Below, one piece after another: positions 719-18,699 of a stretch of DNA of 25,640 nucleotides (its first letter is position 1; every line of letters begins with the position of its first letter). The notes below the pieces were generated by a model. It had not been told where the DNA came from. It made no database searches and saw nothing but the letters and a program-made list of their open reading frames with translations. The position numbers were made by a program, and so were the translations under genes. Source of the stretch: a virus; the IMG/VR virus record IMGVR_UViG_3300031963_000850, positions 1 to 25,640 of that record. One strand, given 5' to 3'.

Positions 719-719
719 T

Positions 720-2018
720 ATGGGAACGCCGCTTACAGGATCCTCGGTAGCCTCGACGTACAGCAGCCTGCTGAAGACGACGGACTCCACCACGTTCAGC
801 ACGACCCTCAAGACCATCTGCGACGGCGCTGGCAACAACTCGTCCTTCCAGTTGGCCAGCACCTCCGCCGCGTTCCTCGCAACGCTGGACATCGCTGGCA
901 ACACGACGCTAGCCGGCAACTTCACGGTCGCCACCAACAAGTTCATCGTGGCCTCCGCCACCGGAAACACGACCGTCGGCGGAACACTGGCTGTCGCAGC
1001 CGCAACCACGCTGTCCACGACGCTCGCCGTCACCGGGGCAGTGACCATGTCCTCGACGCTCGCCGTCTCCAGCAACATCAGCACGTCCGGCGGGAACATC
1101 TCAGTCTATGGCAACATCGTCCAAAGCAACGCAGGCGCGTCGAGTTCGATTGCCGGGGCGTTCACCGTCGGAGGCGCGACAGTCTTCAACGGTGGTGTCA
1201 CGTTCAACTCCTCGACCTCGTTCACCTCGGCGCTCACCGTCAACGGCATCACGAACAACGGCACGCTCACGAACACCGGAGCCGCCATTATTGGAACCGT
1301 TGGAGGTGTTACCCTCGGACAAACCGCTATCAACAGTAGCGTCACGGTCTCGGGGCCAAGCACTTTCAACGGAAACACTGTTATTGGTGACGCTGCTGTC
1401 GATACTGTGACCGTTGGGGCTGCAACGGTGACGTTCACAAATCTGGCAGCGAAGTCTTCCACCGTTGCAGCGGACACGTTCCTCGTTCGCGACTCGGCAG
1501 ACTCCAACAAGCTCAAGACCGTTGTGGCCTCCGCCGTTGGTGCGGCGAAGTTCATCTACTCGGAGACGATTTCGAGGGCGCAAGGATCCGAGCAATCAGC
1601 ATCCATTGCAGCGGGTGGATACGCAGTGTTGCAGCAAAGCGGATCCGCTTCGGATTGGTCCTACACTTGGACCCCAAAGACCATCGGGAACAAGGCTCTA
1701 CTGAAAGTGTCGCTCCCGGTCACAGCTTCAAACGACGTGACGGTTTACGCTGCCATCGTCAAAGACTCGGGTGCCGTTGGGGACGTTGTTGCGGTGTGCG
1801 GACAGTATGTTTCAAGTGGATTCCCAGCAGTGATGATCATCCAGGGCGCATTCACTTCAACGGCTGCAACGCACACCTTCAAGGTGTGGTTCGGACCAAG
1901 CGGATCCACAACGTCAATGACCATCGCGCAGAACACCAACGGTGGAAACGCTGACTGGTTCAACAACGACTCTTCCTCGCAGAACGCCAAGGTCCAATTT
2001 GAACTGATCGAGTTCTGA
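720..2018 (+). CDS. Repetitive tail fibre / receptor-binding protein
   Basis: A 432-residue protein. I place the start at ATG 720 (MGTPLTGSSVASTYSSLLK), one base after the lipoprotein stop, because this opening is typical of phage fibres beginning with a TGxxVASTY-type segment; an ATG at 699 would add seven residues. Residues about 55-250 are low-complexity Thr/Ser/Ala/Gly/Val repeats of the TLxVTGAVTMSSTLAV kind, which in phage fibres form extended trimeric beta shafts. From about residue 272 the sequence changes to an ordered, aromatic-containing C-terminal domain of about 160 residues (SDWSYTWTP, FKVWFGPSGS, WFNNDSSS), likely the beta-sandwich tip that meets the host surface. It precedes the adaptor and tail tube genes. 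The family is recognised by composition and organisation, not by a catalytic motif. Confidence 0.75.
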   Translation: MGTPLTGSSVASTYSSLLKTTDSTTFSTTLKTICDGAGNNSSFQLASTSAAFLATLDIAGNTTLAGNFTVATNKFIVASATGNTTVGGTLAVAAATTLSTTLAVTGAVTMSSTLAVSSNISTSGGNISVYGNIVQSNAGASSSIAGAFTVGGATVFNGGVTFNSSTSFTSALTVNGITNNGTLTNTGAAIIGTVGGVTLGQTAINSSVTVSGPSTFNGNTVIGDAAVDTVTVGAATVTFTNLAAKSSTVAADTFLVRDSADSNKLKTVVASAVGAAKFIYSETISRAQGSEQSASIAAGGYAVLQQSGSASDWSYTWTPKTIGNKALLKVSLPVTASNDVTVYAAIVKDSGAVGDVVAVCGQYVSSGFPAVMIIQGAFTSTAATHTFKVWFGPSGSTTSMTIAQNTNGGNADWFNNDSSSQNAKVQFELIEF

Positions 2019-2022
2019 TCTG

Positions 2023-2793
2023 ATGAACATCTCTGAAATCGCCCAGGCTGCCTGCGACAAGCTGTCGTTCACCGACTCAGCCACACTCGCGCTCGCCAAG
2101 AAGTTCGCAGCCCGCAGGTACGCCATGCTCTGGGATGGCGCTCTCTGGAACGATACCCTCGGCGTCGTCTCCATCTCCATCACCGACGGCCAAGAGATCG
2201 TCAACATCAGCCCGTTCGTCACCTCCTCCTACGCCTCGTTCTCCGGCGAGGAATCCTACCTAGATCTCCCCGTCGCCATCCGCTTCACCGGCAGCGGTGA
2301 CACCGACGGCATCGAGATCCCAGCCGCAGAATGGCAGTCGTTCTTCCAACTCGATCCCAACATCTGGAACAACGTGGACTCCCGGAAGTCCACACCCAAC
2401 AACTTCGTCAACCTCTCGCGCCTCATGACCGACGGCGCGACCACCTACGGTCAGTCCGGCATCCCGCGCATCAAGCTCGTACCGACTCCCAACACCGCCG
2501 GCACCCTGTTCATCCTCGGCAAGAAACAGTCCTGCGTCCGGCAACTCGGCGAGACCGCAGCCATCACGCTCAACCGATCCATCGACCTCCGGGGCGCCGA
2601 CAACGCTCTCATGGCTTACGTCGAAGGTGACCTGCTCGAGTACTCCCGCCAGTACTCCAAGGCCCAAGCCAAGTTCGCCGAAGGCACTGCTCACGTCTCC
2701 ACCATGAAGGACATGGAACGTGGCCAACAGCAGCAGATCAGCAGGATCATCCCGGATTCCGATTACTCCTACGACTTCAACGACATCGTCTGA
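2023..2793 (+). CDS. Head-to-tail adaptor / tail tubular protein A-like
   Basis: A 256-residue protein. The N-terminal 60 residues are helical (ISEIAQAACDKLSFTDSATLALAKKFAARRYAMLWDGALW), followed by a beta-rich middle and a C-terminal helical part (NALMAYVEGDLLEYSRQYSKAQAKFAEG). This helix-sheet-helix plan and size match the adaptor or tail-tubular-A proteins that form a dodecameric ring under the portal of short-tailed phages. Identification also rests on position: its stop shares a base with the start of the beta-propeller tail gene (2793), and adaptor and nozzle genes are neighbours in podoviruses. No Shine-Dalgarno is visible before ATG 2023. A plain hypothetical tail protein is the alternative. 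Confidence 0.6.
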   Translation: MNISEIAQAACDKLSFTDSATLALAKKFAARRYAMLWDGALWNDTLGVVSISITDGQEIVNISPFVTSSYASFSGEESYLDLPVAIRFTGSGDTDGIEIPAAEWQSFFQLDPNIWNNVDSRKSTPNNFVNLSRLMTDGATTYGQSGIPRIKLVPTPNTAGTLFILGKKQSCVRQLGETAAITLNRSIDLRGADNALMAYVEGDLLEYSRQYSKAQAKFAEGTAHVSTMKDMERGQQQQISRIIPDSDYSYDFNDIV

Positions 2794-4769
2794 TGCCATT
2801 CCAATCGTCAGAGTCCCTCGATGACCAGATCGTCCTGGACGGATCCAACGGATTCCCCAACGGCGTCATCTCCGCCACTCGACCTGACGGCATCCCGGCC
2901 ACATCCCTCTCGGATGCGGTCAACATGGACTACGACGACTTCGGAAACCTGATCACCCGCTACGGCTCGATCTCGTTCATCGGAAACGGTCTCGCCGCCA
3001 ACTGGGAAAGCATCGTCTCCAACTGGGAGGCACTCACCACCACCTACTGGGGATCTGGCCTACCCACCGACATCGAGATCCTCGCCGGGTTCTACTTCGA
3101 CACCGCGGCGTCCGAGCGGTTGATCATCGCCGGGTACTCGCCCAGTGGCGCAACCCGCCAACTGTACGTCGGCAACCCCACGACCGCTTGGGGAGCGATC
3201 TCCGGTTCGTCCTTCAGTTCGTCGGCCACCTACATCTACTTCGCCCAACTCAACGAGAAGCTCTACTACTCGGATGGGGTGGGCACGCTCAAGTACATTG
3301 ACGCAACCAACACCAACGCTTCAATCACCGTTGGAAAGGTGAGCAGGGTTGATGTCATCAACGAGAGCAGCAACCACTCGACGATTCCGACAATCACCTT
3401 CTCTGCTCCTCCAGTAACAGTTCCTCCATCAGTTACAGCAACTGGCGTGGCGGTTGTTTCCGGTGACGGCAGCTTGGTTGCCGTCACAATCACCAATCCG
3501 GGATCCGGGTACACGACAGCACCAACCATCACGATCAGTCCGGCCAACGGTTCCCATGCCGTAGCCTACGTTTCGCTCAATCCCCCCAACAAGCCGATCT
3601 ACCTCGTATCGCACACGCAACGCCTGTTCTGTGCGTCTGCGGACACCACGATCACTCCAGACACGCTTCACTTCTCCGACATCCTCGACGGCGAAACGTG
3701 GGACCCCGCCGGAAGCATCCGCGTCGGCGGCGACGGCGATCCCATCACCGGCCTATTCTCTTGGTTCGGCAGCCGCATCCTCGTCTTCAAGGAACGCTCC
3801 ATCTGGTACGTCGATGCTGACCCAACCCAAGACGCCGCAGACTGGATCGTAGGACTCGTCTCCGGGAACATCGGCTGCGTCTCCCACCGCTCCATCGTGG
3901 GCATCGGCGCTGACATCCTGTTCCTCTCCCGCGATGGCGTCCGGTCAATCGCCCAGATCCAAGCGGGCACCCAGACCGACGTTGGCCTCCCGATCTCCGC
4001 ACCGATCAAGGACATCGTCTCCAAGATCAACCGATCCAAGTACCACCTCTGCGAGGCAGTCGCTTGGAACAACCGCTACCTCCTCGCCGTTCCACTCCTC
4101 GACTTCGAGTCCCTCCTCACCGAGGACATGCAGGACATCCTCACCGAGAGTGACCAAGAAATCCTCACCGGCTCCGAGGACGCCAACAACTGCGTGCTCG
4201 TCTATCACCTGTTGGCCAAGGCATGGATCGGCTACTGGACCAACTGGTCCGTCTCAGACTTCATCCCCACCCAGTTCTCGAGCAACGGTCCCATCCTCAT
4301 GTGGGGTGGCCAACTCTTGTCCGCGAACTCCGGTGCCAGCCAAGTCTGGGCGTTCAGCGATTACCTGCCCAACACGCGCACCGATCCCGCGCCGATCACT
4401 GCCTTCTTCGATTCCGGCTACCCCTACGAAAGCCGGATCACCACCAAGGCATTCAACTTCAACGAACCGATCCCACAGAAGACCGGCTACAATGCTCAGT
4501 TCGCGCTGGAGAACCCTAACCCAGACTGGACCGGATCTTTCGACATGGAGTTCTCCACCGACATGGGCAAGACGTGGACAACTCTCGAAACCAACGTCGA
4601 TGTTCAGCCACAGGACTTCAAGTTCCTCAAGTCGTTCAACCTCATTTCACGCGGCAGATGGAACAACATCCAGTTCAGGGTCAAAACCTCGCAGGACATC
4701 GGTGGGCGGATGATGCCGCAGAGTATTACGACGACCGGATTCCTCGATTCGATCAGGCCCGAGCAATGA
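2793..4769 (+). CDS. Tail tube / nozzle protein (beta-propeller type) with inserted domain
   Basis: A 658-residue structural protein. Residues 1-180 and 264-530 contain repeated beta strands with aromatic and Gly-rich turns (RLIIAGYSPSGATRQLYVG, ILVFKERSIWYVDADP, DILFLSRDGVRSI, WNNRYLLAVPL), the pattern of the propeller-forming tail nozzle of T7 gp12/P22 gp10-like phages. The C-terminal about 120 residues (ESRITTKAFNFNEP to RVKTSQDIGGRMMPQ) form a further beta domain typical of these proteins. Residues about 182-263 are different: a Thr/Val/Pro-rich segment with a GSGYTTAPTITI motif, looking like an inserted small beta module between two blades. The start overlaps the adaptor stop and the end overlaps the next gene by ATGA. 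It probably forms the distal tube through which DNA leaves. Confidence 0.7.
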   Translation: MPFQSSESLDDQIVLDGSNGFPNGVISATRPDGIPATSLSDAVNMDYDDFGNLITRYGSISFIGNGLAANWESIVSNWEALTTTYWGSGLPTDIEILAGFYFDTAASERLIIAGYSPSGATRQLYVGNPTTAWGAISGSSFSSSATYIYFAQLNEKLYYSDGVGTLKYIDATNTNASITVGKVSRVDVINESSNHSTIPTITFSAPPVTVPPSVTATGVAVVSGDGSLVAVTITNPGSGYTTAPTITISPANGSHAVAYVSLNPPNKPIYLVSHTQRLFCASADTTITPDTLHFSDILDGETWDPAGSIRVGGDGDPITGLFSWFGSRILVFKERSIWYVDADPTQDAADWIVGLVSGNIGCVSHRSIVGIGADILFLSRDGVRSIAQIQAGTQTDVGLPISAPIKDIVSKINRSKYHLCEAVAWNNRYLLAVPLLDFESLLTEDMQDILTESDQEILTGSEDANNCVLVYHLLAKAWIGYWTNWSVSDFIPTQFSSNGPILMWGGQLLSANSGASQVWAFSDYLPNTRTDPAPITAFFDSGYPYESRITTKAFNFNEPIPQKTGYNAQFALENPNPDWTGSFDMEFSTDMGKTWTTLETNVDVQPQDFKFLKSFNLISRGRWNNIQFRVKTSQDIGGRMMPQSITTTGFLDSIRPEQ

Positions 4770-5188
4770 CAGACGGCGCGATCAGGCTGCTCCGGGAAAA
4801 GTGGGACACCTGCCGCAACTGGTCAGACGACCAGATCCTCGCGTGGATCAGCTACTTCCACGGACGCATCGGGTTCATCGCTGACGAAAGCGGCGAATGC
4901 TGCGGCGTCGGCGCAGTGCGGTTCATCAACGACCTCTCGCAGTCCAGCGACTGGAGGATCAACGAACCCAACGGCACCATCGCCTGGGTCGAGATCGTCG
5001 TGGCCAACAAGGAGCAAGCCGTCGCCTCGCTCATGGCCGCGCTCGTTGGCCGGTGCAAGCCGTGCGTCACCAAGATCGGCGGACGCAATCTCGCCACGGG
5101 TAAGGTCCGCTTGTTCGATTTCAACCGTTACTGCACCCTGCTCTCCAACAACAGGATTACATATGGGCGGAAGTTACAAAGCACCTGA
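4766..5188 (+). CDS. Small virion-cluster protein, GNAT-like pattern (weak)
   Basis: A 140-residue protein, start fixed by ATGA overlap with the tail tube gene. The order of elements is a helix (GAIRLLREKWDTCRNWSDDQILAWISYFHGRI), strands with a Cys pair (GFIADESGECCGVGAVRFI), a strand (AWVEIVVANKEQ), then a helix (AVASLMAALVGRC) and more strands. A strand resembling VEIVVA before a helix recalls the core of acetyltransferase (GNAT) folds, and proteins of this size often stand between tail and internal-protein genes in podoviruses. The acetyl-CoA P-loop signature (Q/RxxGxG/A) is not clearly present, so enzymatic activity is not claimed. Its last 26 bases overlap the next gene in another frame. 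Confidence 0.55.
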   Translation: MTDGAIRLLREKWDTCRNWSDDQILAWISYFHGRIGFIADESGECCGVGAVRFINDLSQSSDWRINEPNGTIAWVEIVVANKEQAVASLMAALVGRCKPCVTKIGGRNLATGKVRLFDFNRYCTLLSNNRITYGRKLQST

Positions 5189-6299
5189 CATGGCGGCGGC
5201 AAACCGAGAAGCGGTGTACGCTCAAACCGAGACGTTCCCGCTGCTTCGCCAGATGGAAGCCGCCTCACGCTTGGGTCGCAAAGGCACCTACGTTGATCCT
5301 GCCACAGGCCAAACGAGGTCCTACGACTTCACCGGCATGTCGGACATCGACCTCACCCGCGAGACCGCGAGGGAGATGGCCAAGCTGGCACCGGAACTCA
5401 CCAAGGCCCAACTCGACCTGTCAAAGGAGTACGGCACCCAGTTCGCCGAGCAACGTCGCCGGGAACTTGAGACCGCGGATCCCGAGCGGTACAAGCTGTA
5501 CGACCAGTTCCTGTCGGACCTGCGCTCCGGTGCCCGCAACGTCGAGGAGGGATCACCCGCCGGACCTGAGTACGAGCGGGTGGCCACTCCGCAGGAGATG
5601 CGCGACACCGGCATGTCGGCGTCGATGCGGGCAGACCTCGAACGCCAGATCAGCGGCGAACTCGCACAGGCCGGCAACTTGCCTCCCGGCCTACAGCGGG
5701 CAGCCGAGCAGGCCCTCCGCGCTCGCGGCGCAGCCACCGGCAACATCTTGGGCAACGCTTCCGCGCTGCGCGAGGCACTCGGCGTTTCGCAGGCCATCCA
5801 GCAGTCCGACGCACAACGACGCGCCCAGGCGCTTGGGCTGCTCCAGTCCGGTCAGACGACCTCGGACACGGCGAACCGCAACGCGCAGCAGTCCTTCCAG
5901 AACATCATGGCGGCTACTGGCCAGCGCAACACGGCAGCCCAGCAGACGTTCGCCGGTCAGATGGCCGCGCAGCAGCAGCGCCAAGCCGGACGCCAGCAGA
6001 ACATCGCCAACGTGCAGTCTGCCCTCGGACTCGCGCCCATCGTCTCGCAGGCCGCGCAGTTGGGTGGATTGCAGCAGGGGTCCTCGCCGTTCGCGCAGCC
6101 GCAGTACATGCAGGGGATGCAGCAGGCGGGACCCGGCCAGCTTCTTGGTGCGGGTTCGCAGTTCGCGTTGTCGAACGCCCAGGGTGAGTTCCAAGCGTCG
6201 CAGGCTGGCAATCCTTTGGCGATTGCCGGTGGGATTATCGGTGGAATCTCTGGGTTGGCCAGTTCCGCTGCCAATACTCGTGCCGCTTTCAAACCATAA
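5163..6299 (+). CDS. Internal virion / ejection protein, Gln-Ala-rich
   Basis: A 378-residue protein. The start chosen is ATG 5163 (MGGSYKAPDMAAANREAVYAQ), which follows genome packing better than the upstream ATG 5046 buried in the previous gene. The first half is charged and helical (LTRETAREMAKLAPELTKAQLDLSKEYGTQFAEQRRREL); the second half is very rich in Gln, Ala and Gly, with many QQ and AQ pairs, and the last 30 residues are a hydrophobic Gly/Ala stretch (NPLAIAGGIIGGISGLASSAAN) that could insert into a membrane. Long helical, Gln-rich proteins with a membrane-seeking tail, placed between the tail tube and a giant polyvalent gene, are characteristic of podovirus internal core proteins ejected with DNA. 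Exact counterpart in T7 or P22 cannot be told. Confidence 0.65.
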   Translation: MGGSYKAPDMAAANREAVYAQTETFPLLRQMEAASRLGRKGTYVDPATGQTRSYDFTGMSDIDLTRETAREMAKLAPELTKAQLDLSKEYGTQFAEQRRRELETADPERYKLYDQFLSDLRSGARNVEEGSPAGPEYERVATPQEMRDTGMSASMRADLERQISGELAQAGNLPPGLQRAAEQALRARGAATGNILGNASALREALGVSQAIQQSDAQRRAQALGLLQSGQTTSDTANRNAQQSFQNIMAATGQRNTAAQQTFAGQMAAQQQRQAGRQQNIANVQSALGLAPIVSQAAQLGGLQQGSSPFAQPQYMQGMQQAGPGQLLGAGSQFALSNAQGEFQASQAGNPLAIAGGIIGGISGLASSAANTRAAFKP

Positions 6300-6311
6300 C
6301 CCGATCACATC

Positions 6312-7121
6312 ATGGCTGAACAAGACCTTCAGGATTTGGAGCAGGCCGCGAAATACCGGCCCGGTGCTGTTTCGCAGATCGCAAACCTGCTGACTGGCGG
6401 GTTGTACGGGATGGCGTCCGGTACGACGCAGAAGAGTGCGGATGCCAGTACGGCACGGCAGTTCCTGTTGCAGAACCGGATGCAGGAACTCCAGCAGCAA
6501 CGGATGCTTGATCGGATTGAGCGCGGAAGACAGGAGTCGTTGACCAACGAGATCCAGCGCATCGCCCAGCAGGAGGAGGCTACCGCCAAACGCCAGCGTG
6601 AAGCAGACGAGCGCCAGAGGATGAAGAAGGCTCCCGAGATGAAGGGGTTCCTGATGGCGCAACCAAACACGTCCGTTGGGGATCCTGATATCGACACGCT
6701 TGAGTCGATGTACGCTCAGGCAAAAGCCGAGTCTGAACAACGCCAAGAGGACGCGAAGAAGAAGTCCGGGTATATTCAGGTCAATGTTGAAGGCTTGGGT
6801 ACGTTCGGTGGAACTCGCGAGCAACTCATGGAAATGGGGAAGACTATTCCCTCGCTCGCAAGAGTCCTCGCCAGCGAACCAAGTGTATCAAATGATGAGT
6901 ACTCCGAGTCCGTATCAGAGGACTCATTGACTGGGGAAATCAAACGGGCGATCAAATTCAATAAGAACGTAACCCCTGAACGCCGCGAAGAAATCATCTC
7001 TAAAGTGTTTTCTGGCAGGGGATCGAAAGCACCTGCGCCTGCGCCTGCACCTGCGCCAGTTGACCCAAACAAGCGAAAGAAGATTTCGATTGAAGGGTTT
7101 GATATTGAGGAAATTCAGTAA
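6312..7121 (+). CDS. Coiled-coil internal virion protein
   Basis: A 269-residue protein. After a short N-terminal helix and a Gly/Met-rich segment (IANLLTGGLYGMASG), residues about 48-105 form a highly charged, Gln-rich coiled coil (NRMQELQQQRMLDRIERGRQESLTNEIQRIAQQEEATAKRQ region). A compact domain follows, then a tail with an (AP)n linker (residues about 238-248, from a GCRCCT repeat at 7029-7057) and a basic/acidic end. Such linkers separate folded parts in virion proteins. It lies between two likely ejection proteins and is probably packaged in the head core or acts as a chaperone for them. No Shine-Dalgarno is seen before ATG 6312. The family is not recognised. Confidence 0.6.
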   Translation: MAEQDLQDLEQAAKYRPGAVSQIANLLTGGLYGMASGTTQKSADASTARQFLLQNRMQELQQQRMLDRIERGRQESLTNEIQRIAQQEEATAKRQREADERQRMKKAPEMKGFLMAQPNTSVGDPDIDTLESMYAQAKAESEQRQEDAKKKSGYIQVNVEGLGTFGGTREQLMEMGKTIPSLARVLASEPSVSNDEYSESVSEDSLTGEIKRAIKFNKNVTPERREEIISKVFSGRGSKAPAPAPAPAPVDPNKRKKISIEGFDIEEIQ

Positions 7122-7139: not shown

Positions 7140-10100
7140 ATGCCAATCTACAAGGTAACTCAGAAATCAACCGGGATGGCAATCAAGATGGAGGGAGAGA
7201 ATCCTCCGTCTCAAGATGACGTTTCAAAAGCATTCGCTGCCATCGGAAGATCCAAGCATCCTGAAGCTCCAACGATTGGCGCTGCTCCTACGCTCGTTGA
7301 ACGCGCAATGGATGTGTTGCCATCCTTCGCAAGGGTGGCCACCCCACTTGTAGGTGCGCCTTCTGTTTCAGACATCCAGACCGTAACCCGGTCAGTTCGT
7401 CAGGCCCTCGAACCGGAGCCGAAGCCGCAGATGCTGCCAGAGGCTTCTCGCTTGGATCGCGAGGGACTCATGGCGCTGCTTACCGCTTCGCCTGAAGATC
7501 GCGAGACCGGCAAGCAAATCGGCGAGTCAATCGGTGGTGTAGTTGGTCCGAAGACGGCGGCTGCCGGTGGAGTGGTTGGCCAAGTTGCCGCTGACCTTCT
7601 CACCCCGCTGAACGTCGCAACGCTTGGAACTCTCGGTGCCGGTCGCCAAGCCGCGAGGCTTCCAGCAACACTGGCCCGCATTGGTGAAGCCGTAACGGCA
7701 GCGGATGTCGCCGCAGCAGCAAACGCAGCGCGGTTGAGTAGGGGTGCAGAACTAGGAATCGCAGCGGCATTCACTCCGCAAGCGGTCTCCGGTGTAGCTC
7801 AGTCTACAGCCCGAGCAACCGACGTGTTCCTCGACAAGGACTCGACTCCAGAAGACAAGACCCGCGCTGCTACCGAGGCTGCTGTGTCGGTACTGATGGC
7901 TTCACTCGTTGGAGCCGGACTCAAAGAGGGCGGATCGAAGGGAGCCTCCGAGTACATCAAGTCCATCGAAGCACTGGCCGACAAGAAGGTTGGAATCGAG
8001 AAAGGGTTGGAGAATCTGGAGCGGGCCAGGGTCGAGCTTGACGCTCTTGAAGCGACGCTTCCGAAAGAGAAGACCGCGCCGATCTCCGACCAGCAGTTGC
8101 GATTCGAGGAGTCGCTGGCGGAAACCAGGGCGCTTGTGGACACGGCGCTCAAGGAAGCGCAGCAGAAGATCCAGACCGGAGAGCAACCCGCGATTGAGAA
8201 GCTGAAGGCTCAAGAGCGCGAGATCATCACTCCCGAGCAGATTGGAGAAGGCCCGCGGGAAACAACCCCTTCGAGAATCCCAACGGAGGAGGCCCCATCT
8301 ACTCTCAAGACAGCAGAGCAAATGCTCGCTCAACGAGTGGAGCCTGTCTTCGAGGAACCCGTCGTTGAAGCACCGAGGGAATCCACTCCGCTCAGATCCA
8401 TCGACGACATCCTCGCGCAGCAGATGCGTCAGAGGACCGCTTCGCGCATCGCAGAGCAGCTTGAATCTGGAACCGAGGTTCTGGATCCGGCGACCGTCAG
8501 CAGGCGGATGATCGAGAAGTCGCTTGGTGTTGGCCGCGAACCTGTCGGCCAAGCTGCTGGCGAAAGCCTCATCATCCGGGAAGCGGCAGAACTCGCGAAG
8601 GAGAGGGCGCTGCAAGGTGGAGGAGAACCCGCACCAGAGGCTCCTCCAGTTCAGCCAGAACCCGCACCAGAGGCTCCGGTGCAACCAGAGGCTGCGCCCA
8701 CCAAGAAGCGGTTCTCAAAGAGGGCGAAGGAGATCGCTGAGTCGCTTGAGTCTGCTCGCGTGAAAGTCGAAGCGGGCCTCGGCGCAAACCCGTTCCCGCA
8801 ACTCATGGGCACCGCTTGGAACGGAGCCATCGTTGTCGCGCAGAACCTGATCAGGGCAGGCGGATCTGTGGCCGACGCCATCGAGGCAGGACTCCGGTAC
8901 GCCAAGGAGAACTTCAAGGACAAGTTCGACGAGACCGAGTTCACGCGGCAACTCGGATCCACGATCCTCAAACCCTCGACCATCAAGCCGGAACCCGGCA
9001 TGGAGCCTCGCAGGTTCGCCGCAAGGACTGCTGCCGCTCCCGGAGTTCCACCCGTGATCCGGGAAGCCGTCGCAGTCTCACCAGAGGCCCAGTACAAGCC
9101 GCAGAACGTGGAGTCTGTGGTGCGTCAGGCTTCCACCATGACGGACGCCCAGATCGAATCCGACATCGCGAACGCGAAGTCGAACACCCGCGTCGCTTCG
9201 TCGATGGAGAAGTTCAATCGGCAGATCTCCGCAGGCGACATGGGAGGAGCCACACAAACCGCTCTTGCAATGGCGAAGAGCGGAACGACCTGGGGCCAAC
9301 TCATCAACCAGTTCAAGCTACTCAACTCGTCCACCCCAGAGGGACTCGTTCGCCTCGTTACCCAGTCCCTCGCAGAATCCGGCAAGAAGCCCATGACGCC
9401 GGAACAGGCAACCGAGATTGCGCGGTTGATGGATCGGCTCAACAAGTCCACCGAGATCGTCAACAACGCCGACCGAAGACTCAAAGAGGCGGCTGAGTCA
9501 GGAGATCCGACTCGCATCAAGATCTCCGAAGGGTTGGCCAAGGTTGCGGATGCGCTGAAGAACGAGTCCGAAGTGGAGATGAATCGCGCCATCGCAAGGG
9601 TCAACCCGTCTTCTGCTGCGGACCTGTACCTTGCAACCGTTCAGGGTGCCGTGATGGGTCCGCTTTCCATCGTCAGGAACATCCTCGGCAACACGATCAA
9701 CCTGCCATTGAGGGAAAGCTCTGATATCCTTTCTTCACTGCTGGATGGAGTCCGATCCAGCAACAAGAACAACACATACAACATCCAGTCCAGAACCGTT
9801 GAACGGGTAAAGGCGTTCGGCAATTCGCTGCCAAATGCTGCGAAGATCTTGCTCAAGGGTTCCGAGGCGATGCCGTATGAAATCGGAACAGATGTTGGCA
9901 ATCCGCTAAACTTCCAGAGGGCTTGGAAGAACATCGTTGATGCGCTCGCTGGCGATTACGAAAAGGCGCAAATCCCGCGCAACCTGTACGAGGCAACTGT
10001 GGGTGTCTTGCCGGACATCATCCTTCGGTTGACCCAAGCAACCGATGTTCCGTTCCGCGCTGCCGAGCGGGCCAGGATTGTGTCCGAGCTTGGAAAGCAA

Positions 10101-11561
10101 CGCGGACTGAACGACGCACAGGTGAAGGTGGCCATCCGAAAGCCTGAGCTTTACCTGATCACCGACGAGGCTGCGGCAAGAGGTTCCAAGGGGTTCACCG
10201 AAGACGATCTTGGAGTCATCGAGCGCGAGTCCGCCAGATCTGTGTACCAGCAGGAGAACGTGGCAACTGAAGCTGTTGCTGGGGTAAACCGTTTCATCAG
10301 GGATAAGGCCGGCTCTTACGGGTACATCCCATACCGGCTCTTGTCGCTCTTCCAGAAGACTCCGATCAACGTCGCTGGAGAGGCTCTTTCATTCACTCCT
10401 GCGGGAGTCCTTCGCAACTGGAGGAAGCTGAGTCCACGAGACCAGAACACTGCGGTCGCAAGGCTTGTTGTCGGCGGCATGATGATGGCGGCTTTTGATT
10501 ACCTGACCAACAAGGGTGTCATCGCTCCAAACCTCGATACGCCAGGGGAAACCTCGAAGGCCCGAGAACTCGCCAAGTCAGGTGGAGTTCAGCCTCCGGG
10601 AACTTTCAATGTCTCCGGTTCACTTCGATTGATTTCCGGCAAGGATCCCAAGTTCAAGTCAGGTGACGAAGTGAAGGATCTGACCGCTCTTGGGACTGCT
10701 GGCGCGTTGGCCATCATGGTGTCCTCTGCGAAGCGCATCCAAGAACGAAGCCGGGAAGGAGATCCAGACTATCTCGCGATAGCGAAGGGTGGAGTCTTGA
10801 GCGGCATCAACTTCGTCATGGAGCAGCAGTTCCTGAAGGGCACCAGAGACTTCATCAAGCTGCTGTCCGAAGAGTCCGGCAATGCTGTTGATCGCTGGCT
10901 CAAGAGCCTCACCGTCACCGCCGCATCGCCGCTGGCTCCCAACACGTTTGCCGCACTACGCCGCGCTCAACGCCCAACGGTTCCGGCTATCGACGGAGAA
11001 GGGTTCATCAAGGATGCAATCGCTGAAATGAACCAGCGGTACGCCGCGCTGGGACTCAAGATCCCCGGCACCAAGGATCCCAACAAGATGCCAGCCCGCA
11101 GGGATCTGTGGGGTGATATCGTCGAGCAGACACCCAAGGGCGAGAACCCGTATCTCTGGAACTTCTTCGATGCCTGGAAGAGCCGCTCCATCGAACCCGA
11201 CCAACTCAACACTTCGATCTACGAAGTCTGGCGCAGGACCGCAGAGAACAAGTCGATCCCTTCGCTCCCGAATCCAAAGATGACTTTCGGTGGCGTGACC
11301 TACGAGGACATGACCCCGGAGCAGTACGACCGATTCTCGGAACTCGTCGGGAAGAACCGCCGCACACTCGCAGAGCGGGTCTACATGAGCGGGGCGTACC
11401 AGCAGGGCGGAGACGACCGAAAGATCGACATGCTGGACAAAGCCTACGAAGGCGGACTTCGCATCGGGAAGATGCAGTTCATGCGTGAACTCAGAGCTTC
11501 CGGCCAGTCGCTCACGCCACTCGGAAAACGCCGCGGCCTCAAGGAACCATCCCCAGAATAG
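7140..11561 (+). CDS. Giant internal/polyvalent protein
   Basis: A 1,473-residue protein, the largest gene in the window. The opening (MPIYKVTQKSTGMAIKMEGENPPSQDDVSKAFAAIG) is a short beta-helix module common at the start of large phage virion proteins. Residues about 130-270 are Ala/Gly-rich and partly hydrophobic. Residues about 275-360 are coiled coil. Residues about 385-530 are low-complexity and Pro/Glu-rich (PEAPPVQPEPAPEAP), acting as a linker. The rest is alpha-helical with hydrophobic patches (ARLVVGGMMMAAFDYL, GTAGALAIMVSSA). This organisation fits large polyvalent proteins that enter the cell with the DNA and may span the envelope. I see no lysozyme, transglycosylase, polymerase or protease motif. 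It closes the virion block; only a 51-base gap with an inverted repeat separates it from the next gene. Confidence 0.65.
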   Translation: MPIYKVTQKSTGMAIKMEGENPPSQDDVSKAFAAIGRSKHPEAPTIGAAPTLVERAMDVLPSFARVATPLVGAPSVSDIQTVTRSVRQALEPEPKPQMLPEASRLDREGLMALLTASPEDRETGKQIGESIGGVVGPKTAAAGGVVGQVAADLLTPLNVATLGTLGAGRQAARLPATLARIGEAVTAADVAAAANAARLSRGAELGIAAAFTPQAVSGVAQSTARATDVFLDKDSTPEDKTRAATEAAVSVLMASLVGAGLKEGGSKGASEYIKSIEALADKKVGIEKGLENLERARVELDALEATLPKEKTAPISDQQLRFEESLAETRALVDTALKEAQQKIQTGEQPAIEKLKAQEREIITPEQIGEGPRETTPSRIPTEEAPSTLKTAEQMLAQRVEPVFEEPVVEAPRESTPLRSIDDILAQQMRQRTASRIAEQLESGTEVLDPATVSRRMIEKSLGVGREPVGQAAGESLIIREAAELAKERALQGGGEPAPEAPPVQPEPAPEAPVQPEAAPTKKRFSKRAKEIAESLESARVKVEAGLGANPFPQLMGTAWNGAIVVAQNLIRAGGSVADAIEAGLRYAKENFKDKFDETEFTRQLGSTILKPSTIKPEPGMEPRRFAARTAAAPGVPPVIREAVAVSPEAQYKPQNVESVVRQASTMTDAQIESDIANAKSNTRVASSMEKFNRQISAGDMGGATQTALAMAKSGTTWGQLINQFKLLNSSTPEGLVRLVTQSLAESGKKPMTPEQATEIARLMDRLNKSTEIVNNADRRLKEAAESGDPTRIKISEGLAKVADALKNESEVEMNRAIARVNPSSAADLYLATVQGAVMGPLSIVRNILGNTINLPLRESSDILSSLLDGVRSSNKNNTYNIQSRTVERVKAFGNSLPNAAKILLKGSEAMPYEIGTDVGNPLNFQRAWKNIVDALAGDYEKAQIPRNLYEATVGVLPDIILRLTQATDVPFRAAERARIVSELGKQRGLNDAQVKVAIRKPELYLITDEAAARGSKGFTEDDLGVIERESARSVYQQENVATEAVAGVNRFIRDKAGSYGYIPYRLLSLFQKTPINVAGEALSFTPAGVLRNWRKLSPRDQNTAVARLVVGGMMMAAFDYLTNKGVIAPNLDTPGETSKARELAKSGGVQPPGTFNVSGSLRLISGKDPKFKSGDEVKDLTALGTAGALAIMVSSAKRIQERSREGDPDYLAIAKGGVLSGINFVMEQQFLKGTRDFIKLLSEESGNAVDRWLKSLTVTAASPLAPNTFAALRRAQRPTVPAIDGEGFIKDAIAEMNQRYAALGLKIPGTKDPNKMPARRDLWGDIVEQTPKGENPYLWNFFDAWKSRSIEPDQLNTSIYEVWRRTAENKSIPSLPNPKMTFGGVTYEDMTPEQYDRFSELVGKNRRTLAERVYMSGAYQQGGDDRKIDMLDKAYEGGLRIGKMQFMRELRASGQSLTPLGKRRGLKEPSPE
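8625..8677 (+). repeat. Direct repeat coding the Pro/Glu linker
   Basis: A 20-base sequence beginning GAACCCGCACCAGAG occurs at 8625-8644 and again at 8658-8677, 33 bases (11 codons) apart. It codes EPAPEAP in both copies. Exact nucleotide identity inside an otherwise diverged gene indicates a recent in-frame duplication in the linker. Confidence 0.7.
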
Positions 11562-11612: not shown

Positions 11613-11780
11613 GTGAAACTTCTCCGTATTCAGGAAGCCGCTGCGGCCATCGGGGTTTGCCCCGAGACCGTGCGGCGATGGGTCCGGCGGGGGTGGATCC
11701 CAGCCGTCAAGGTCAACCCACGGGTGATCCGTGTGCGCCAAGACGACTTGGAAAAACTCATCGCATCAAAACATCAGTAA
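11613..11780 (+). CDS. 55-residue helix-turn-helix protein (excisionase/MerR-like)
   Basis: A GTG at 11613 opens a 55-residue protein. The order is helix (LRIQEAAAAIGV), turn (CPET), recognition helix (VRRWVRRGWIP), a short wing (AVKVNPRVIRVRQ) and a last helix (DDLEKLIASK). This is the excisionase/MerR-type HTH_17 layout: EAA..IGV...TVRRW...G.IPAVK......R...DDLEKLI. It is the only in-frame start after the TAG at 11577. The stop is one base from the RecT-like gene, so both are probably on one transcript. It most likely binds DNA as a small regulator of the recombination/replication block, perhaps at the inverted repeat beside its start. An excisionase role is possible, but no integrase is present in the window. 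Confidence 0.75.
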   Translation: MKLLRIQEAAAAIGVCPETVRRWVRRGWIPAVKVNPRVIRVRQDDLEKLIASKHQ

Positions 11781-11781
11781 C

Positions 11782-12555
11782 ATGAACGAACTCACTACCA
11801 CGTCCGGCAATCCGCCGGTCAACGTCTACGACCGGATCAATGACCCGGTTTCCGCCACCGCCCAACTCGGCGAGTGGATCGCCAGCAGCGGCATGTTCGG
11901 CTGCACCAAGGTCGAGCAGGGCCACATCTTGGCCCTCCAGTGCTTGGCCGAGCGCAAGTCGCCGTTCGACATCAAGCGCACCTATCACCTCATCCAAGGG
12001 CAGATCTCCATGCGAGCCGACGCCATGCTCGCTGGATACCGGCAGCGCGGTGGCAAGGTGATCTGGAAGCAGTTCGACGCGAAGGCTGCCATCGCCACTT
12101 GGAAGTACGACGGCAACGAGGTCGAGATCAGCTACACGCTCGACGACGCCAAGCAGGCAGGTCTCTGGCCCGCCAAGGCCGGCACCGGCTGGAGCAAGGA
12201 TCCCGCTGCCATGCTCCGCGCACGCTGCATCTCGAAAGCGGTAAGGATGCTCGCTCCAGAAGTCGTCATGGGCGTCTACACGCCCGAGGAGGTGTCCGAC
12301 TTCAGCCAACCGGAGAAAGCCCCGCAGCACCCCATGGTGCGCGACTGGGACGCTATTGCGAAGCTGGAGAAGTCCTTCGAGTCTCGCGAAGCCGAGATCA
12401 ACGCACTGCTGGTCGCTGACCGGCGCATCACCGAAGGGCAGACGTTCCGCGATCTGCCCGACGAATCGCTCCGCAGGTTGGCCAGCAAGCCGGACCTGTT
12501 GCTCGCGAAGCTGCCGAAGGTGGTCGTCGCCCAGGAAGCCGAGGTGGTCGAGTGA
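11782..12555 (+). CDS. recT: RecT-family single-strand annealing protein
   Basis: A 257-residue protein. The best evidence is residues 137-171, WSKDPAAMLRARCISKAVRMLAPEVVMGVYTPEEV in outline (W-K-P-ML-AR-S-R-P-G-Y-PEE), the conserved C-terminal signature of the RecT/Redbeta annealing superfamily, preceded by a beta-rich core (AIATWKYDGNEVEISYTLDDAKQAGL) and by helices. RecT-type proteins coat single-stranded DNA made by a partner exonuclease and anneal complementary strands in phage recombination and end repair. The next gene, starting by GTGA overlap, is the expected RecE-like exonuclease, which makes the assignment strong. The start at ATG 11782 directly follows the HTH gene; an upstream frame extension to 11731 would overlap that gene and is not used. 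Confidence 0.82.
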   Translation: MNELTTTSGNPPVNVYDRINDPVSATAQLGEWIASSGMFGCTKVEQGHILALQCLAERKSPFDIKRTYHLIQGQISMRADAMLAGYRQRGGKVIWKQFDAKAAIATWKYDGNEVEISYTLDDAKQAGLWPAKAGTGWSKDPAAMLRARCISKAVRMLAPEVVMGVYTPEEVSDFSQPEKAPQHPMVRDWDAIAKLEKSFESREAEINALLVADRRITEGQTFRDLPDESLRRLASKPDLLLAKLPKVVVAQEAEVVE

Positions 12556-13815: not shown

Positions 13816-15309
13816 ATGCGCCTCAGAACGTATCAGTCCGACTGCATCGGTCAAGTCAACGCGAAGTGGCTTGAGCATAAGCGGTTGCTCGTTGTGATCC
13901 CAACTGGGGGCGGCAAGACCATCATCTTCGCCAATCTTGCCGCCTCCCTTCCCGGTCGCACCCTCATCCTCGCCCACCGCGAGGAACTCCTTCAGCAGGC
14001 CATCGACAAGATCCGCCGCGCCACCGGGGTCAACGCAGAACTCGAACGCGCCGATCAACGCGCCTCACCTGACGCCAAGGTCGTCGTCGGATCCATCCAG
14101 ACTCTCGTCCGTCGCACCGGCAACTTCGCCCCGGACGACTTCGGCCACATCATCATCGACGAGGCGCACCACGTTGCCGCAGACACCTACCAGTCGATCC
14201 TCAACCACTTTCAGCAGGCCAAGGTGCTGGGTGTAACCGCGACACCAGACCGCGCCGACAAGCGGGCACTCGGCGAACACTTCGACACCGTGGCCTTCGA
14301 GGTAACGCTGCTCGACCTCATCCACCAAGGGTTCCTCGTTCCCATCAAGGCCCGCGTCTGCGACGTGTCCATCGACCTCACCAAGGTCAACTTCTCCAAG
14401 GGCGACTTCGATGCCGGTGACGCAGGCGACTCCATCGAACCCTACCTCGAACGCATCGCCGCGGAGATCGCCAAGTACGGAGGCAAGAAGACCATGATCT
14501 TCCTGCCACTCATCCGCACCTCCCAGCGGATGACAGAGATCTGCAATCGACTGGGGCTGGATGCAGAACACGTCGATGGCAACTCACCCGACCGAGCCGA
14601 GATCCTCCAGAGGTTCGCCGCCAAGGACCGCGGCGTGATCTGCAACGCCATGCTCCTCACCGAGGGGTACGACGAACCATCCATCGACACCATCGTCGTC
14701 CTGCGCCCCACCAAGTCCCGTGCCCTCTACACGCAGATGGTGGGACGAGGCACACGGCTTCACCCAGGCAAGACCCAACTCACGATCCTCGACTTCCTGT
14801 GGCTCACCGGACGCCACCGGCTTGTCCGCCCCACGTCACTCATCTCCGAGGGCGAAGTCGCCGACATGGCCGACCGCATGACCTCGGAGCAGGGCGAGTT
14901 CGATCTCGAAGACGCAGTCAAGGAAGCCACCCACGAACGCGAGCAGACCCTCCTGCGTGAGTTGGCCCGCAAGAAGCGCAACGCCGGCAACTTCATCGAC
15001 CCGGTCGAGTTCTCCGTCTCGATCCACAGTGCCGCAGTCCAGGACTACGAACCCATGTTCCCGTGGCAGGGCGAACCCGCTTCCGACAAACAGATTGCAA
15101 TGCTCCTCAAATACGGATTCAACCAAGAGGACATCCGCAACAAGGGACACGCATCCGTGATCCTCGACGCCATCATGTCCCGCCAGAAGCTCAACCTCGC
15201 CACACCCAAGCAGGTCCGCCTGCTGACGAAGTTCGGCATCCCAAACGCACAAACCATTTCCTTCAAGCAGGCCAGTGAGATCATCAACCAACGCTTCAAC
15301 AGAAAATGA
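13816..15309 (+). CDS. SF2 DEAD/DEAH-box helicase
   Basis: A 497-residue helicase. Motif I is PTGGGKT (29-35), motif II DEAH (115-118), motif III TATP (141-144), and the second RecA-like domain ends with motif VI QMVGRGTRLHPGK (307-319). The phage-type SF2 layout (short N-terminus, both RecA domains by residue about 330) matches UvsW/RadD-like helicases that remodel forks or recombination intermediates. The C-terminal 70 residues hold two related units, ASDKQIAMLLKYGF (422-435) and ATPKQVRLLTKFGI (462-475), known from phage and RadD-like helicases as a small repeated helical module. It follows the recombination trio after a hairpin and 70-base gap, without a visible Shine-Dalgarno. The stop overlaps the next small gene (ATGA). 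Confidence 0.88.
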   Translation: MRLRTYQSDCIGQVNAKWLEHKRLLVVIPTGGGKTIIFANLAASLPGRTLILAHREELLQQAIDKIRRATGVNAELERADQRASPDAKVVVGSIQTLVRRTGNFAPDDFGHIIIDEAHHVAADTYQSILNHFQQAKVLGVTATPDRADKRALGEHFDTVAFEVTLLDLIHQGFLVPIKARVCDVSIDLTKVNFSKGDFDAGDAGDSIEPYLERIAAEIAKYGGKKTMIFLPLIRTSQRMTEICNRLGLDAEHVDGNSPDRAEILQRFAAKDRGVICNAMLLTEGYDEPSIDTIVVLRPTKSRALYTQMVGRGTRLHPGKTQLTILDFLWLTGRHRLVRPTSLISEGEVADMADRMTSEQGEFDLEDAVKEATHEREQTLLRELARKKRNAGNFIDPVEFSVSIHSAAVQDYEPMFPWQGEPASDKQIAMLLKYGFNQEDIRNKGHASVILDAIMSRQKLNLATPKQVRLLTKFGIPNAQTISFKQASEIINQRFNRK

Positions 15310-15854: not shown

Positions 15855-16874
15855 ATGTATGCACACATGGATACTACCACGCCAGTTACACACGTTGGCC
15901 TTTGCGCTGGATACGGAGGCATTGAACTTGGGTTGCGAAGAGTCATCCCGCATCTGCGCTCAGTCGCTCTTTGTGAGATCGAAGCCTTCGCCGTTGCCAA
16001 CCTGGTATCGAAAATGGAAGCGGGACTCCTGGACCCAGCACCTGTTTGGCCGGATCTTAAGACCTTCCCTTGGGCAGCGTTTCACAACCGAGTGGACATC
16101 CTCACTGGCGGTTATCCCTGCCAGCCATTCAGCGCAGCCGGGAAGCGGGCAGGGACGGAAGACCCTCGCCACCTGTGGCCATGGATCGCAGATGGAATTG
16201 CTGCCATGCGACCCAGAACCTGCTTCTTCGAGAACGTCGACGGGCACGTCTCGATTGGACTCTCCACAGTCATCAGCGATCTGGAAGAGCTTGGTTACGC
16301 AGCGACGTGGGGAGTATTTAGCGCGGCTGAATGCGGTGCTACACACCAGCGAAAGCGTGTCTTCATCCTGGCCAACCGCATCGGCGCGGGACTGGAAGGG
16401 TTGTTATCAAACGCTGGAGAGAAAGGATGGGAAGATGCGAGGGGATCTACTTCCAGATGCAGTCAGGATTGTGGAGAATGGAAAAAGGTCTCGTTCTCAG
16501 CAGACTGCGATGAATACGGAAACTGCTCAGTCTGTGGAGATTACTACGCAGACTGCGGGTGTCCAGGGCCAACCCAAGATGGGATTGAGTACAAAGAGAA
16601 TGAAGGAGAGTTGCTTGGGAGAAGAGTGTCAGCGTGGGCAGCAGGACCAAGCCAAGCGCAGCATAGCTGGGAGCCGCCAAGAGTTTTTGGCGATAGAAAA
16701 CCAACTCAACCCGCGCTGGGTGGAGACCCTGATGGGTCTGCCAGTGGGATGGACTATGCCAAGCTGTGCGTCTCCGGTGATAATCGAACCGACGAACTCC
16801 GCCTCCTCGGCAACGGAGTAGTACCCGCCACCGCCGCGCTCGCGTTCCGCACACTCTCAGCACAACTCACCTGA
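15855..16874 (+). CDS. C5 cytosine-specific DNA methyltransferase
   Basis: A 339-residue DNA C5-cytosine methyltransferase; it transfers a methyl group from S-adenosylmethionine to cytosine. Motif I is LCAGYGGIELGL (16-27, cofactor site), motif IV GGYPCQPFSAAGKR (85-98, catalytic Cys89), motif VI FFENVDGH (124-131), motif VIII QRKRVFILA (165-173) and motif X LRLLGNGVVPATA (315-327). The target-recognition region includes a Cys cluster (C218, C224, C227, C234, C236; CSVCGDYYADCGCPGP), probably a zinc knuckle. A start at M5 (15867) is also possible. In the middle (about residues 185-300) codon use changes: over residues 185-211 only 10 of 27 codons end in G or C, while flanking genes are strongly C/G-ending. 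A second long frame overlaps almost the whole gene (see next feature). The likely role is protection of phage DNA from host restriction. Confidence 0.9.
   Translation: MYAHMDTTTPVTHVGLCAGYGGIELGLRRVIPHLRSVALCEIEAFAVANLVSKMEAGLLDPAPVWPDLKTFPWAAFHNRVDILTGGYPCQPFSAAGKRAGTEDPRHLWPWIADGIAAMRPRTCFFENVDGHVSIGLSTVISDLEELGYAATWGVFSAAECGATHQRKRVFILANRIGAGLEGLLSNAGEKGWEDARGSTSRCSQDCGEWKKVSFSADCDEYGNCSVCGDYYADCGCPGPTQDGIEYKENEGELLGRRVSAWAAGPSQAQHSWEPPRVFGDRKPTQPALGGDPDGSASGMDYAKLCVSGDNRTDELRLLGNGVVPATAALAFRTLSAQLT
15859..16821 (+). CDS. Second, +1 reading frame inside the methyltransferase gene (possible dual-coding product)
   Basis: A 320-codon frame beginning at ATG 15859 covers about 94 percent of the methyltransferase gene in the +1 frame with no stop. 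Its second half is not random: residues 168-181 read SSSWPTASARDWKG, residues 197-206 LLPDAVRIVE, and residues 283-299 LNPRWVETLMGLPVGWT. These WPT..., LLPDAV and LNPxWVExLMGxPxGWT motifs are, from memory, the hallmark of a set of phage DNA-methyltransferase-like proteins. The enzyme frame over the same DNA also keeps its motifs VIII and X. So the region may code two conserved products, or a frameshifted fusion. No own ribosome-binding site is seen. I cannot test conservation here, so translation is unproven. Confidence 0.4.
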   Translation: MHTWILPRQLHTLAFALDTEALNLGCEESSRICAQSLFVRSKPSPLPTWYRKWKRDSWTQHLFGRILRPSLGQRFTTEWTSSLAVIPASHSAQPGSGQGRKTLATCGHGSQMELLPCDPEPASSRTSTGTSRLDSPQSSAIWKSLVTQRRGEYLARLNAVLHTSESVSSSWPTASARDWKGCYQTLERKDGKMRGDLLPDAVRIVENGKRSRSQQTAMNTETAQSVEITTQTAGVQGQPKMGLSTKRMKESCLGEECQRGQQDQAKRSIAGSRQEFLAIENQLNPRWVETLMGLPVGWTMPSCASPVIIEPTNSASSATE

Positions 16875-16878
16875 CCAC

Positions 16879-18699
16879 ATGGCTACCACCATCGACCGAG
16901 CCAAGGCTTGGCTCTCTTCCATCCCTCCCGCCATCTCTGGATCCGGCGGTCACAACGCCACGTTCACCGCTGTCACCGGCCTCCTCAACGGGTTCTGCCT
17001 CGACGAGTCCACCACCATGGATCTCCTGCGCGATTGGAACCGCTCCTGCCAACCGCCATGGAGCGACCGAGAACTCTACCACAAGATCAAGTCCTCCATC
17101 TCCACTCCCCACTCCAAACCCAGAGGCTTCCTGCTGAACGCTTCCACGGCACCCTCCCAAGTCGATATCACACGGGTGCGTTTCAACAGACCACCGGAAC
17201 CAGAACCACTCCCCATCGAACACTCCGATACCGCTCCACACATTGAGTTCGCCGAGTTCCTCCGCGCTGCCTTCGCCGAGGGCGAGATCATCTCCATCTG
17301 CAACGACCTCACACCCGAGGGCAAACCCAACTCCACTGGGTCATTCATGACCCGCGAAGCATGGCTCGACCGATTCGCCAACGAAGGCTCAACCCTGTTG
17401 GCCAACGACAGCCACGGCGTGTTCGTCCGCATCAATCCGTTTCAACCAAATGAGTTCTCCGGTGCCGACAAGTCCGTATCCATCTACCGCCATGTCCTCG
17501 TCGAGATGGACGACATGCCCAAGGACAAACAGAACGCCATCCTGCGCCAGTCCGGCCTACCCATCTCCGTACTCATCGACTCCGGTGGCAAGTCCATCCA
17601 CGCATGGGTCCGCGTAGACGCAGCCGACCGCGCCCAATGGGACGAACGCCGCGACATCGTCTACAACCACTTGGCAGGCCAAGGAATCGACCCCAAGAAC
17701 AAGAACCCGTCCCGCTACTCGAGACTCCCCGGTGCCCACCGCGCCGGCACCCGGCAACGTCTGCTCGCCACCAAACTCGGCAGCGACACATTCGAGAACT
17801 GGATCATCGAACGCGAGCAGTCCGAGGACGAGGCCACCGTCATCACCATCCGGGACCTGATGACGTTCGTCCCAGCCAACGATCCCGACAACCTCGTCGG
17901 TAACCGCTGGCTCACCCGCGGGTCATCCATCGTCCTGTCCGGCGGATCAGGCATCGGCAAGTCCAGCCTGATCATGCAGCTCATCATCCTGTGGTCCGCT
18001 GGCCAACCGTTCTTCGGCATCGCCCCGGTACGACCACTCCGCATCGGAGTCATCCAAGCAGAGAACGACACCGGGGACTTGGCAGAAGCCTTCCAGGGCG
18101 TTGTCAGGGGAATCAACATGCCCAAGGACAAGAGCGACTTGGTCAAAGCCAACCTGCACTTCCGCACCGAGACCGTCCGCACCGGACCAGCGTTCCTCGA
18201 CTACGCCCGCCGCTTCGTCACCAAGTCCAAGCTCGACCTCGTCATCTGCGACCCACTCCTGTCCTACTTCGGTGGCGACCTGTCGAACCAGGAATCCGTG
18301 TCGCGTTTCCTACGGAACCAGCTTCAACCGATACTCAAGGAAACCAAGGTCTGCTGGATGTGGATCCACCACATTGCCAAACCAGCGAAGGACCGCGACG
18401 GCGAGCCACCCTCCATGATGGAACTGGCCTACGCTGGCTTCGGATCAAGCGAACTCACCAACTGGGCGCGTGAGATCGCAGTCATCCAGGAGGTGGGCCA
18501 CCAAACGCCACGCAAGTTCAGGCTCAACTTCTGCAAGCGTGGCGGACGACTCGAACGGAACGTGATCCCGCTCTCGCACGGCGAACGAGGTTCCATCGTG
18601 TGGACCGAGTGGAATCCCATGGCAATCACTGGTGCTGCTCTAAAGCAGGAACCTCCACAGCCGCGTAGAGATCGAGCAAGGGCACAGAGACGCCCTTAG
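16879..18699 (+). CDS. AEP primase / RecA-like helicase fusion
   Basis: A 606-residue replication protein. Residues 1-75 resemble a primase C-terminal-type helical domain (RAKAWLSSIPPAISGSGGHNATFTAVTGLLNGF...WSDRELYHKIKS), here at the N-terminus. Residues about 120-310 look like an archaeo-eukaryotic primase core: VEMDD (E209, D211, metal site), SGGKSIHAW (235-243, His241) and SRYSRLPG (278-285). Residues about 325-580 are a RecA/RepA-like ATPase with Walker A GGSGIGKSS (355-363, Lys361) and Walker B LDLVICDPL (452-460, Asp458), then WIHHIAKP (495-502). Together they would make primers and unwind the fork. ATG 16879 is four bases after the methyltransferase stop, without an obvious Shine-Dalgarno. 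The last 74 bases overlap the gene on the opposite strand; the Arg/Pro-rich tail (PRRDRARAQRRP) is therefore shared DNA. Confidence 0.82.
   Translation: MATTIDRAKAWLSSIPPAISGSGGHNATFTAVTGLLNGFCLDESTTMDLLRDWNRSCQPPWSDRELYHKIKSSISTPHSKPRGFLLNASTAPSQVDITRVRFNRPPEPEPLPIEHSDTAPHIEFAEFLRAAFAEGEIISICNDLTPEGKPNSTGSFMTREAWLDRFANEGSTLLANDSHGVFVRINPFQPNEFSGADKSVSIYRHVLVEMDDMPKDKQNAILRQSGLPISVLIDSGGKSIHAWVRVDAADRAQWDERRDIVYNHLAGQGIDPKNKNPSRYSRLPGAHRAGTRQRLLATKLGSDTFENWIIEREQSEDEATVITIRDLMTFVPANDPDNLVGNRWLTRGSSIVLSGGSGIGKSSLIMQLIILWSAGQPFFGIAPVRPLRIGVIQAENDTGDLAEAFQGVVRGINMPKDKSDLVKANLHFRTETVRTGPAFLDYARRFVTKSKLDLVICDPLLSYFGGDLSNQESVSRFLRNQLQPILKETKVCWMWIHHIAKPAKDRDGEPPSMMELAYAGFGSSELTNWAREIAVIQEVGHQTPRKFRLNFCKRGGRLERNVIPLSHGERGSIVWTEWNPMAITGAALKQEPPQPRRDRARAQRRP

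Follow-up and report, generated by a model that had tools for sequence, protein, structure and literature searches.

Two almost coextensive genes in one phage locus probably encode two subunits of a DNA cytosine-5 methyltransferase

The window, by which we mean the whole stretch of 25,640 nucleotides from IMG/VR virus record IMGVR_UViG_3300031963_000850, contains a cytosine-5 methyltransferase (C5-MTase) gene over which a second reading frame stays open almost from end to end, and the question is whether that frame encodes a protein and what such a protein would do. The original prediction described a complete enzyme frame with motifs I, IV, VI, VIII and X, together with an uninterrupted 320-codon ORF in the +1 frame bearing three motifs of its own. 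Both frames are present (the enzyme at 15855/15867-16874, the +1 ORF at 15859-16821), as are all three motifs in the +1 translation. We propose that the locus very probably consists of almost coextensive same-strand +1 genes for two subunits, here alpha and beta, of one phage DNA C5-MTase (Table 1). On the sequence evidence, dual coding is close to certain, and the subunit model appears to draw strong support from the anatomy, from selection and from precedent. Assembly error is unlikely because the sequence of the locus is found at 100% on two contigs from two metagenomes. The neighboring genes, encoding a RecT-like protein (11731-12552), a DEAD/ResIII helicase (13816-15306) and an AAA_25 ATPase (16879-18696), form a replication/recombination module; a 1473-aa ORF (7140-11561) and five more large ORFs (699-7121) have no Pfam match.

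Table 1. Features of the alpha/beta locus, with positions in the window and omega by frame.
Feature	Positions	Strand	Remarks
alpha, putative C5-MTase catalytic subunit, 335 aa	15867..16874	+	conserved ATG at 15867; PF00145; AF2 Rossmann domain
beta, putative +1-frame subunit, 320 aa, phrog_1008 family	15859..16821	+	start codon 8 nt 5' of alpha start
shared initiation region (predicted)	15859..15894	+	beta N-terminus MHTWILPRQLHT overlaps alpha start
alpha motif I (VGLCAGYGGIELGL)	15894..15935	+	
beta conserved block KWKRDSWTQHLFGRIL	16012..16059	+	nearly invariant in 56 betas; omega beta 0.28-0.35
alpha motif IV (GGYPCQPFSAAGK), catalytic Cys	16107..16145	+	omega alpha 0.08, beta 1.10
alpha motif VI (FFENVDGH)	16224..16247	+	omega alpha 0.14, beta 1.06
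alpha motif VIII (HQRKRVFILAN)	16344..16376	+	
beta WPTP-type putative recognition cassette (SSSWPTASARDWKG...LLPDAVRIVE)	16360..16476	+	omega beta 0.17-0.49, alpha 0.78-0.95 (alpha residues 176-250)
beta motif IX (LNPRWVETLMGLPVGWT)	16705..16755	+	omega beta 0.14, alpha 1.36
alpha motif X (RLLGNGVVPATAALAF)	16800..16847	+	omega alpha 0.07, beta 0.60

Alpha has the catalytic large domain of a C5-MTase and its motifs I, IV (PCQ), VI (ENV), VIII and X, but motif IX and a recognition domain, which such an enzyme holds in the same chain, are both found in beta instead. PF00145 matches alpha at 3e-30 over residues 14-184 only. An AF2 model of alpha, run with 56 relatives, has a confident core at about residues 1-180 and 312-335, leaves most of residues 191-311 disordered and contains no recognition domain; compared with the PDB by Foldseek, it best matches M.HhaI, over the core. 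A second in-frame ATG lies upstream of the alpha start, at 15855, and its use would add 4 aa. The weakly constrained part of alpha includes a Cys-rich stretch (CDEYGNCSVCGDYYADCGCPGPTQD, 16506-16580), similar to one in a viral relative (locus L056).

The motifs of the +1 frame had been associated beforehand with methyltransferase-like phage proteins; beta matches phrog_1008 (PHROGs, "DNA methyltransferase") at 1.5e-15. The same family is matched by 12/12 diverse betas (best 7.9e-53), and on these profile matches phrog_1008 is the beta family; PHROGs lists it as an ordinary MTase family, and the description returned is silent on its +1 position over an MTase. Searches of Pfam and NCBIfam with beta matched no family, a PDB sequence search gave no convincing match, and AF2 models beta poorly on its own (pLDDT 53, pTM 0.23). 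When beta was compared by profile with single-frame MTases, motif IX alone aligned, weakly. Twelve diverse betas nevertheless have in common an invariant L-N-P-x5-LMG-x-P-x2-W, giving a pattern of LNPRWVETLMGLPVGW in beta versus LTPRECARLMGFPDTF in canonical MTases. In canonical C5-MTases from the same bacterial genomes, motif IX (LTPRECARLMGFPDTF, LTPKECARLQGFPDDF) is read in the catalytic frame at identical spacing, and +1 contains 9-31 stops. Since the beta pattern corresponds to this in-frame motif at equal spacing, motif IX lies in beta and not in alpha. Read in this way, the +1 frame supplies both the motif IX and the recognition region missing from the MTase frame, and this layout is frequent among phages and prophages, neither of which the original prediction had anticipated.

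The closest precedent is the bacterial enzyme M.EcoHK31I, in which the gene for the small polypeptide is contained, in another frame, within that for the large one. M.EcoHK31I (YGGCCR) is a C5-MTase needing two proteins; the large polypeptide holds motifs I-VIII and X, motif IX is restricted to the small one, and the recognition domain is assigned to the large subunit (PMC3404938, citing Lee, Kam and Shaw 1995). The window pair would likewise comprise two polypeptides with motif IX confined to the smaller; unlike in M.EcoHK31I, the region expected to hold recognition is neutral and disordered in alpha and constrained in beta. Beta further differs in covering nearly all of alpha, starting 2-8 nt earlier, and the genes occur in phages and probably prophages. 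The best explanation is a two-subunit C5-MTase made from overlapping genes, which would work like M.EcoHK31I. As in M.AquI (CYCGRG), a split C5-MTase, the catalytic part and the distal recognition/motif IX part are on separate polypeptides, but M.AquI has motif X in its beta as well, whereas the window family keeps it in alpha. The exception is L056, with motif X in the +1 frame and an alpha ending in a Cys-rich tail, an M.AquI-like division known from one contig in which assembly error is possible.

The overlap is widespread. It occurs in divergent isolate and metagenome phages (C75C1, ctgrD200, ctNMl277, AeroV_348, Cr-LKS3, phiKX1, two Rhodobacter phages, E. coli Bas72, ev129, cyanophage Yong-M2-251, ABMM1 and Alfacinha3); among them C75C1, Bas72, ev129, the Rhodobacter phages and ABMM1 are isolates, in which both frames are open. 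Public records of phiKX1, Cr-LKS3 and Alfacinha3 (L085, L088, L098) annotate the beta frame and leave the catalytic MTase frame unannotated; in the remaining phages the annotated CDS is alpha. A search of bacterial and archaeal genomes using the beta alignment yielded at least 593 pattern matches, at least 236 of them confirmed, from which the best 80 were taken, so that the bacterial counts describe best matches and no random sample. At 80/80 of these loci an MTase has beta in its +1 frame, and the overlap is >300 nt at 79/80, the remaining locus being decayed. Motifs I-VIII and X in the large chain, with IX only in the small, are found in the window, at nearly all 80 bacterial loci and at 67/79 viral loci. 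A viral sample of 79 loci was drawn through alpha, blind to beta: a strict motif IX is found in +1 at 67/79, about 8 of the 12 others show a diverged form, and the leftover loci are truncated or rearranged. The overlap is present in about 95% of these viral loci, a figure that holds for that clade and not for all C5-MTases because the alpha query was taken from dual-coded genes. At every dual-coded locus checked, the small chain is in the +1 frame. Among Enterobacteriaceae, beta occurs in 13/198 genomes; when an M.EcoHK31I-like restriction-modification locus was sought in the 198, none of the seven loci opened was identified as a restriction-modification locus, and three of the seven were alpha/beta pairs. 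The plasmid collection gave one clear case of beta, Paenibacillus pAP1. The dual genes are found in phages and, probably, prophages. In the literature covered, open-licence papers, we did not find a wide occurrence of dual-frame MTase genes described.

This distribution bears on the reading that both genes are real but that beta is no enzyme subunit, having instead a separate role, such as MTase regulation or inhibition of host defence, with its likeness to motif IX due to ancestry or coincidence. The conserved N-terminal region of beta, which has no counterpart in canonical MTases, and the lack of any detected structural relative in our PDB search would fit a protein of independent function. 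Standalone betas, however, number 0 among the 80 best-matching bacterial loci, alpha is missing exactly what beta carries, and M.EcoHK31I (PMC3404938) sets a precedent; we regard a separate role as improbable.

Under the two-subunit reading, both proteins would be translated from their own starts, whose layout was compared across viral relatives. Scanning IMG/VR with beta gave 144 relatives; from the best 80 of these, 60 non-identical loci with the 5' end of the gene formed the set for counting open frames and starts. Both frames are long ORFs with start codons at fixed spacing in 60/60 viral loci with an intact 5' end, and the beta ATG lies 2, 5 or 8 nt 5' of the alpha start in 59/60. The 2-nt spacing is seen at 28 loci (ATGTG, with alpha starting on GTG), 5 nt at 26, and 8 nt at five, including the window; the 60th locus (L064) has the same layout with GTG/GTG starts, beta beginning on GTG. 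This geometry suggests that both frames initiate from one region. Shine-Dalgarno-like matches precede 31/60 beta starts, little over the 38% background, and none was seen at the window's beta start. At L077 a single indel near the 3' end displaces both proteins together. Two loci show other changes: at L068 (~4840-5400) an HNH-endonuclease-like ORF has entered beta at its motif IX codons (LNPRWV|...) and interrupts it, alpha being open right through, and at L064 (3998-6109) the beta frame extends ~700 codons, stop-free, into downstream nuclease-like sequence, either as a fusion or because a stop is missing by chance.

The fixed starts also weigh on a second possibility raised by the original prediction, that a programmed +1 frameshift fuses the N-terminal half of alpha to the C-terminal half of beta, so that one MTase is made alongside an isoform. 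The pieces would give motifs I-VIII, the recognition region and IX in order, and single-frame versions do exist: in the C5-MTases of the actinophages Tweety, Estave1, Lton, PFR1 and Graduation, the catalytic part is related and a motif-IX-like segment resembles the one in beta. Unlike in the window, this segment and motif X are read in the catalytic frame in all five, whose +1 frame holds part of a beta-like ORF. A frameshift is nevertheless unnecessary because each frame has its own conserved start; the constrained N-terminus of beta would be missing from any frameshift product, and motif X, in frame 0, would need a second shift back. Scanning the window's alpha frame for slippery patterns revealed neither a -1 heptamer nor a +1 stop-type site. 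We therefore consider this mechanism very unlikely and return to two separately started genes.

If both proteins are made, selection should be visible in both frames. Omega was obtained for each frame from pairwise comparisons, using an OLGenie-style count that sorts substitutions by what they change in either frame. For the closer pairs, omega across alpha residues 1-172 is 0.17 in alpha and 0.43 (0.29-0.61) in beta, and across residues 172-318 it is 0.29 in alpha and 0.18 (0.13-0.25) in beta, the intervals being too narrow because the pairs are phylogenetically dependent. More distant pairs give 0.50 and 0.33. Across most of beta, omega is 0.13-0.5, indicating purifying selection. The +1 frames of seven control families, ordinary genes on the same contigs, have omega of 0.64-1.30 and 10-14 stops, and the contrast with beta is large despite the dependence of pairs; an eighth control family proved to be an antisense spurious ORF, whose frame-0 omega of 0.58-1.04 is what a non-coding frame should give. 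Measured motif by motif in 25-codon windows, constraint alternates between the frames along the gene: at alpha motifs IV and VI, omega is 0.08-0.14 in alpha and about 1.1 in beta, and at beta motif IX it is 1.36 in alpha versus 0.14 in beta. Constraint is divided so that the catalytic motifs and motif X are held in alpha, and the cassettes and motif IX in beta. The original prediction had ascribed a loss of C/G-ending codon bias in the middle of the gene to limits set by two proteins, and constraint of that kind is seen here in both frames.

A second, independent family of 158 alphas from prophages and viruses (394 pairs, 300 used) serves as a within-gene control. Its +1 omega is 1.03-1.11 ahead of beta and 0.99 past the end of beta; inside beta it is mostly about 0.3-0.6, with 0.92 in one variable stretch. 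The alpha-synonymous rate falls from 1.3-1.9 outside beta to 0.2-0.8 within it. Constraint on the +1 frame is confined to the beta ORF.

These measurements address the suspicion that the +1 ORF is an untranslated shadow of a conserved MTase gene and that its database entries reflect gene callers picking the wrong frame. The annotation of the +1 frame in phiKX1, Cr-LKS3 and Alfacinha3 does resemble such mis-annotation. A shadow, however, would not account for protein-level constraint that control genes lack, for a conserved beta start codon, for a +1 motif IX over a neutral stretch of alpha, or for the confinement of +1 constraint to the beta ORF in the independent family. Nor would it account for the missing stops: none is present where shuffling of synonymous codons expects 3-12, and the window has 0 against a mean of 4.95 after shuffling alpha's synonymous codons (P = 0.001). 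We give this suspicion hardly any credence. Database matches limited to shadows, stops in homologues and a dN/dS near 1 had been named beforehand as evidence against dual coding, and none of these was found; the open frames and fixed starts at 60/60 loci, with +1 constraint unlike that of control genes, uphold the predicted conserved dual-coding gene. An old fusion with compensating shifts, also suggested at the outset, predicts one decaying frame, but here constraint in each frame falls where the other has none, and we reject compensating frameshifts or sequencing error given the recurrence in two metagenomes and a layout common to all relatives.

The middle of beta suggests where specificity may reside. 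Between motifs VIII and IX, betas contain 0-6 WPTP-type units by a simple pattern count. L037 and L055 differ by 2.5% in their N halves and have the first unit in common; their later units differ, and the two sequences become alike once more at motif IX. In the 91 pairs whose N halves diverge by <10%, median divergence in the middle is 27%. This looks like an exchange, between viruses, of WPTP cassettes, each of which may recognise DNA. In the multispecific C5-MTases of SPbeta-group phages, short recognition modules that can be exchanged lie between motifs VIII and IX, within the catalytic frame. The putative modules of the window family have the same location but, unlike those, lie in +1.

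Taken as a two-subunit enzyme, alpha would be the catalytic large domain, running through motifs I-VIII and a poorly constrained stretch to motif X, and beta would provide the missing parts, WPTP-type target-recognition cassettes and motif IX, while its conserved N-terminal region may join the subunits. Each protein would start on its own codon, 2-8 nt apart, and alpha and beta would assemble 1:1 into an enzyme methylating phage DNA, which plausibly counters host restriction. We infer from sequence that both proteins are translated and associate, that the enzyme methylates DNA with a specificity for certain sequences, and that it counters restriction. More tentatively, and with somewhat less than even confidence, the genes may form an extensive and largely overlooked class of C5-MTases in phages and prophages whose specificity is held in the second frame by swappable WPTP cassettes of beta, each conferring a target, with the overlapped part of alpha kept open as neutral filler.

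What is new here is the coextensive genes, their wide spread, the complementary selection and the cassettes in the second frame. Long same-strand overlaps conserved among distant relatives are seldom seen and usually disputed, and this one is open to testing in E. coli via the BASEL isolate phages Bas70, 72, 73 and 74. A dual-read gene is usually annotated as one protein, and half of the enzyme would be missed; by implication, many phage and prophage "DNA cytosine methyltransferase" annotations would be half an enzyme, proteins annotated by phrog_1008 would be the other half, and recoding the annotated ORF for expression would destroy the enzyme. Because constraint switches frames motif by motif, the locus offers a natural system for how two proteins share one sequence. 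If the model is true, this would be among the most widespread fully overlapping gene pairs of tailed phages, and, if the cassettes do act from the +1 frame, their exchange would alter methylation specificity while leaving the catalytic subunit untouched.
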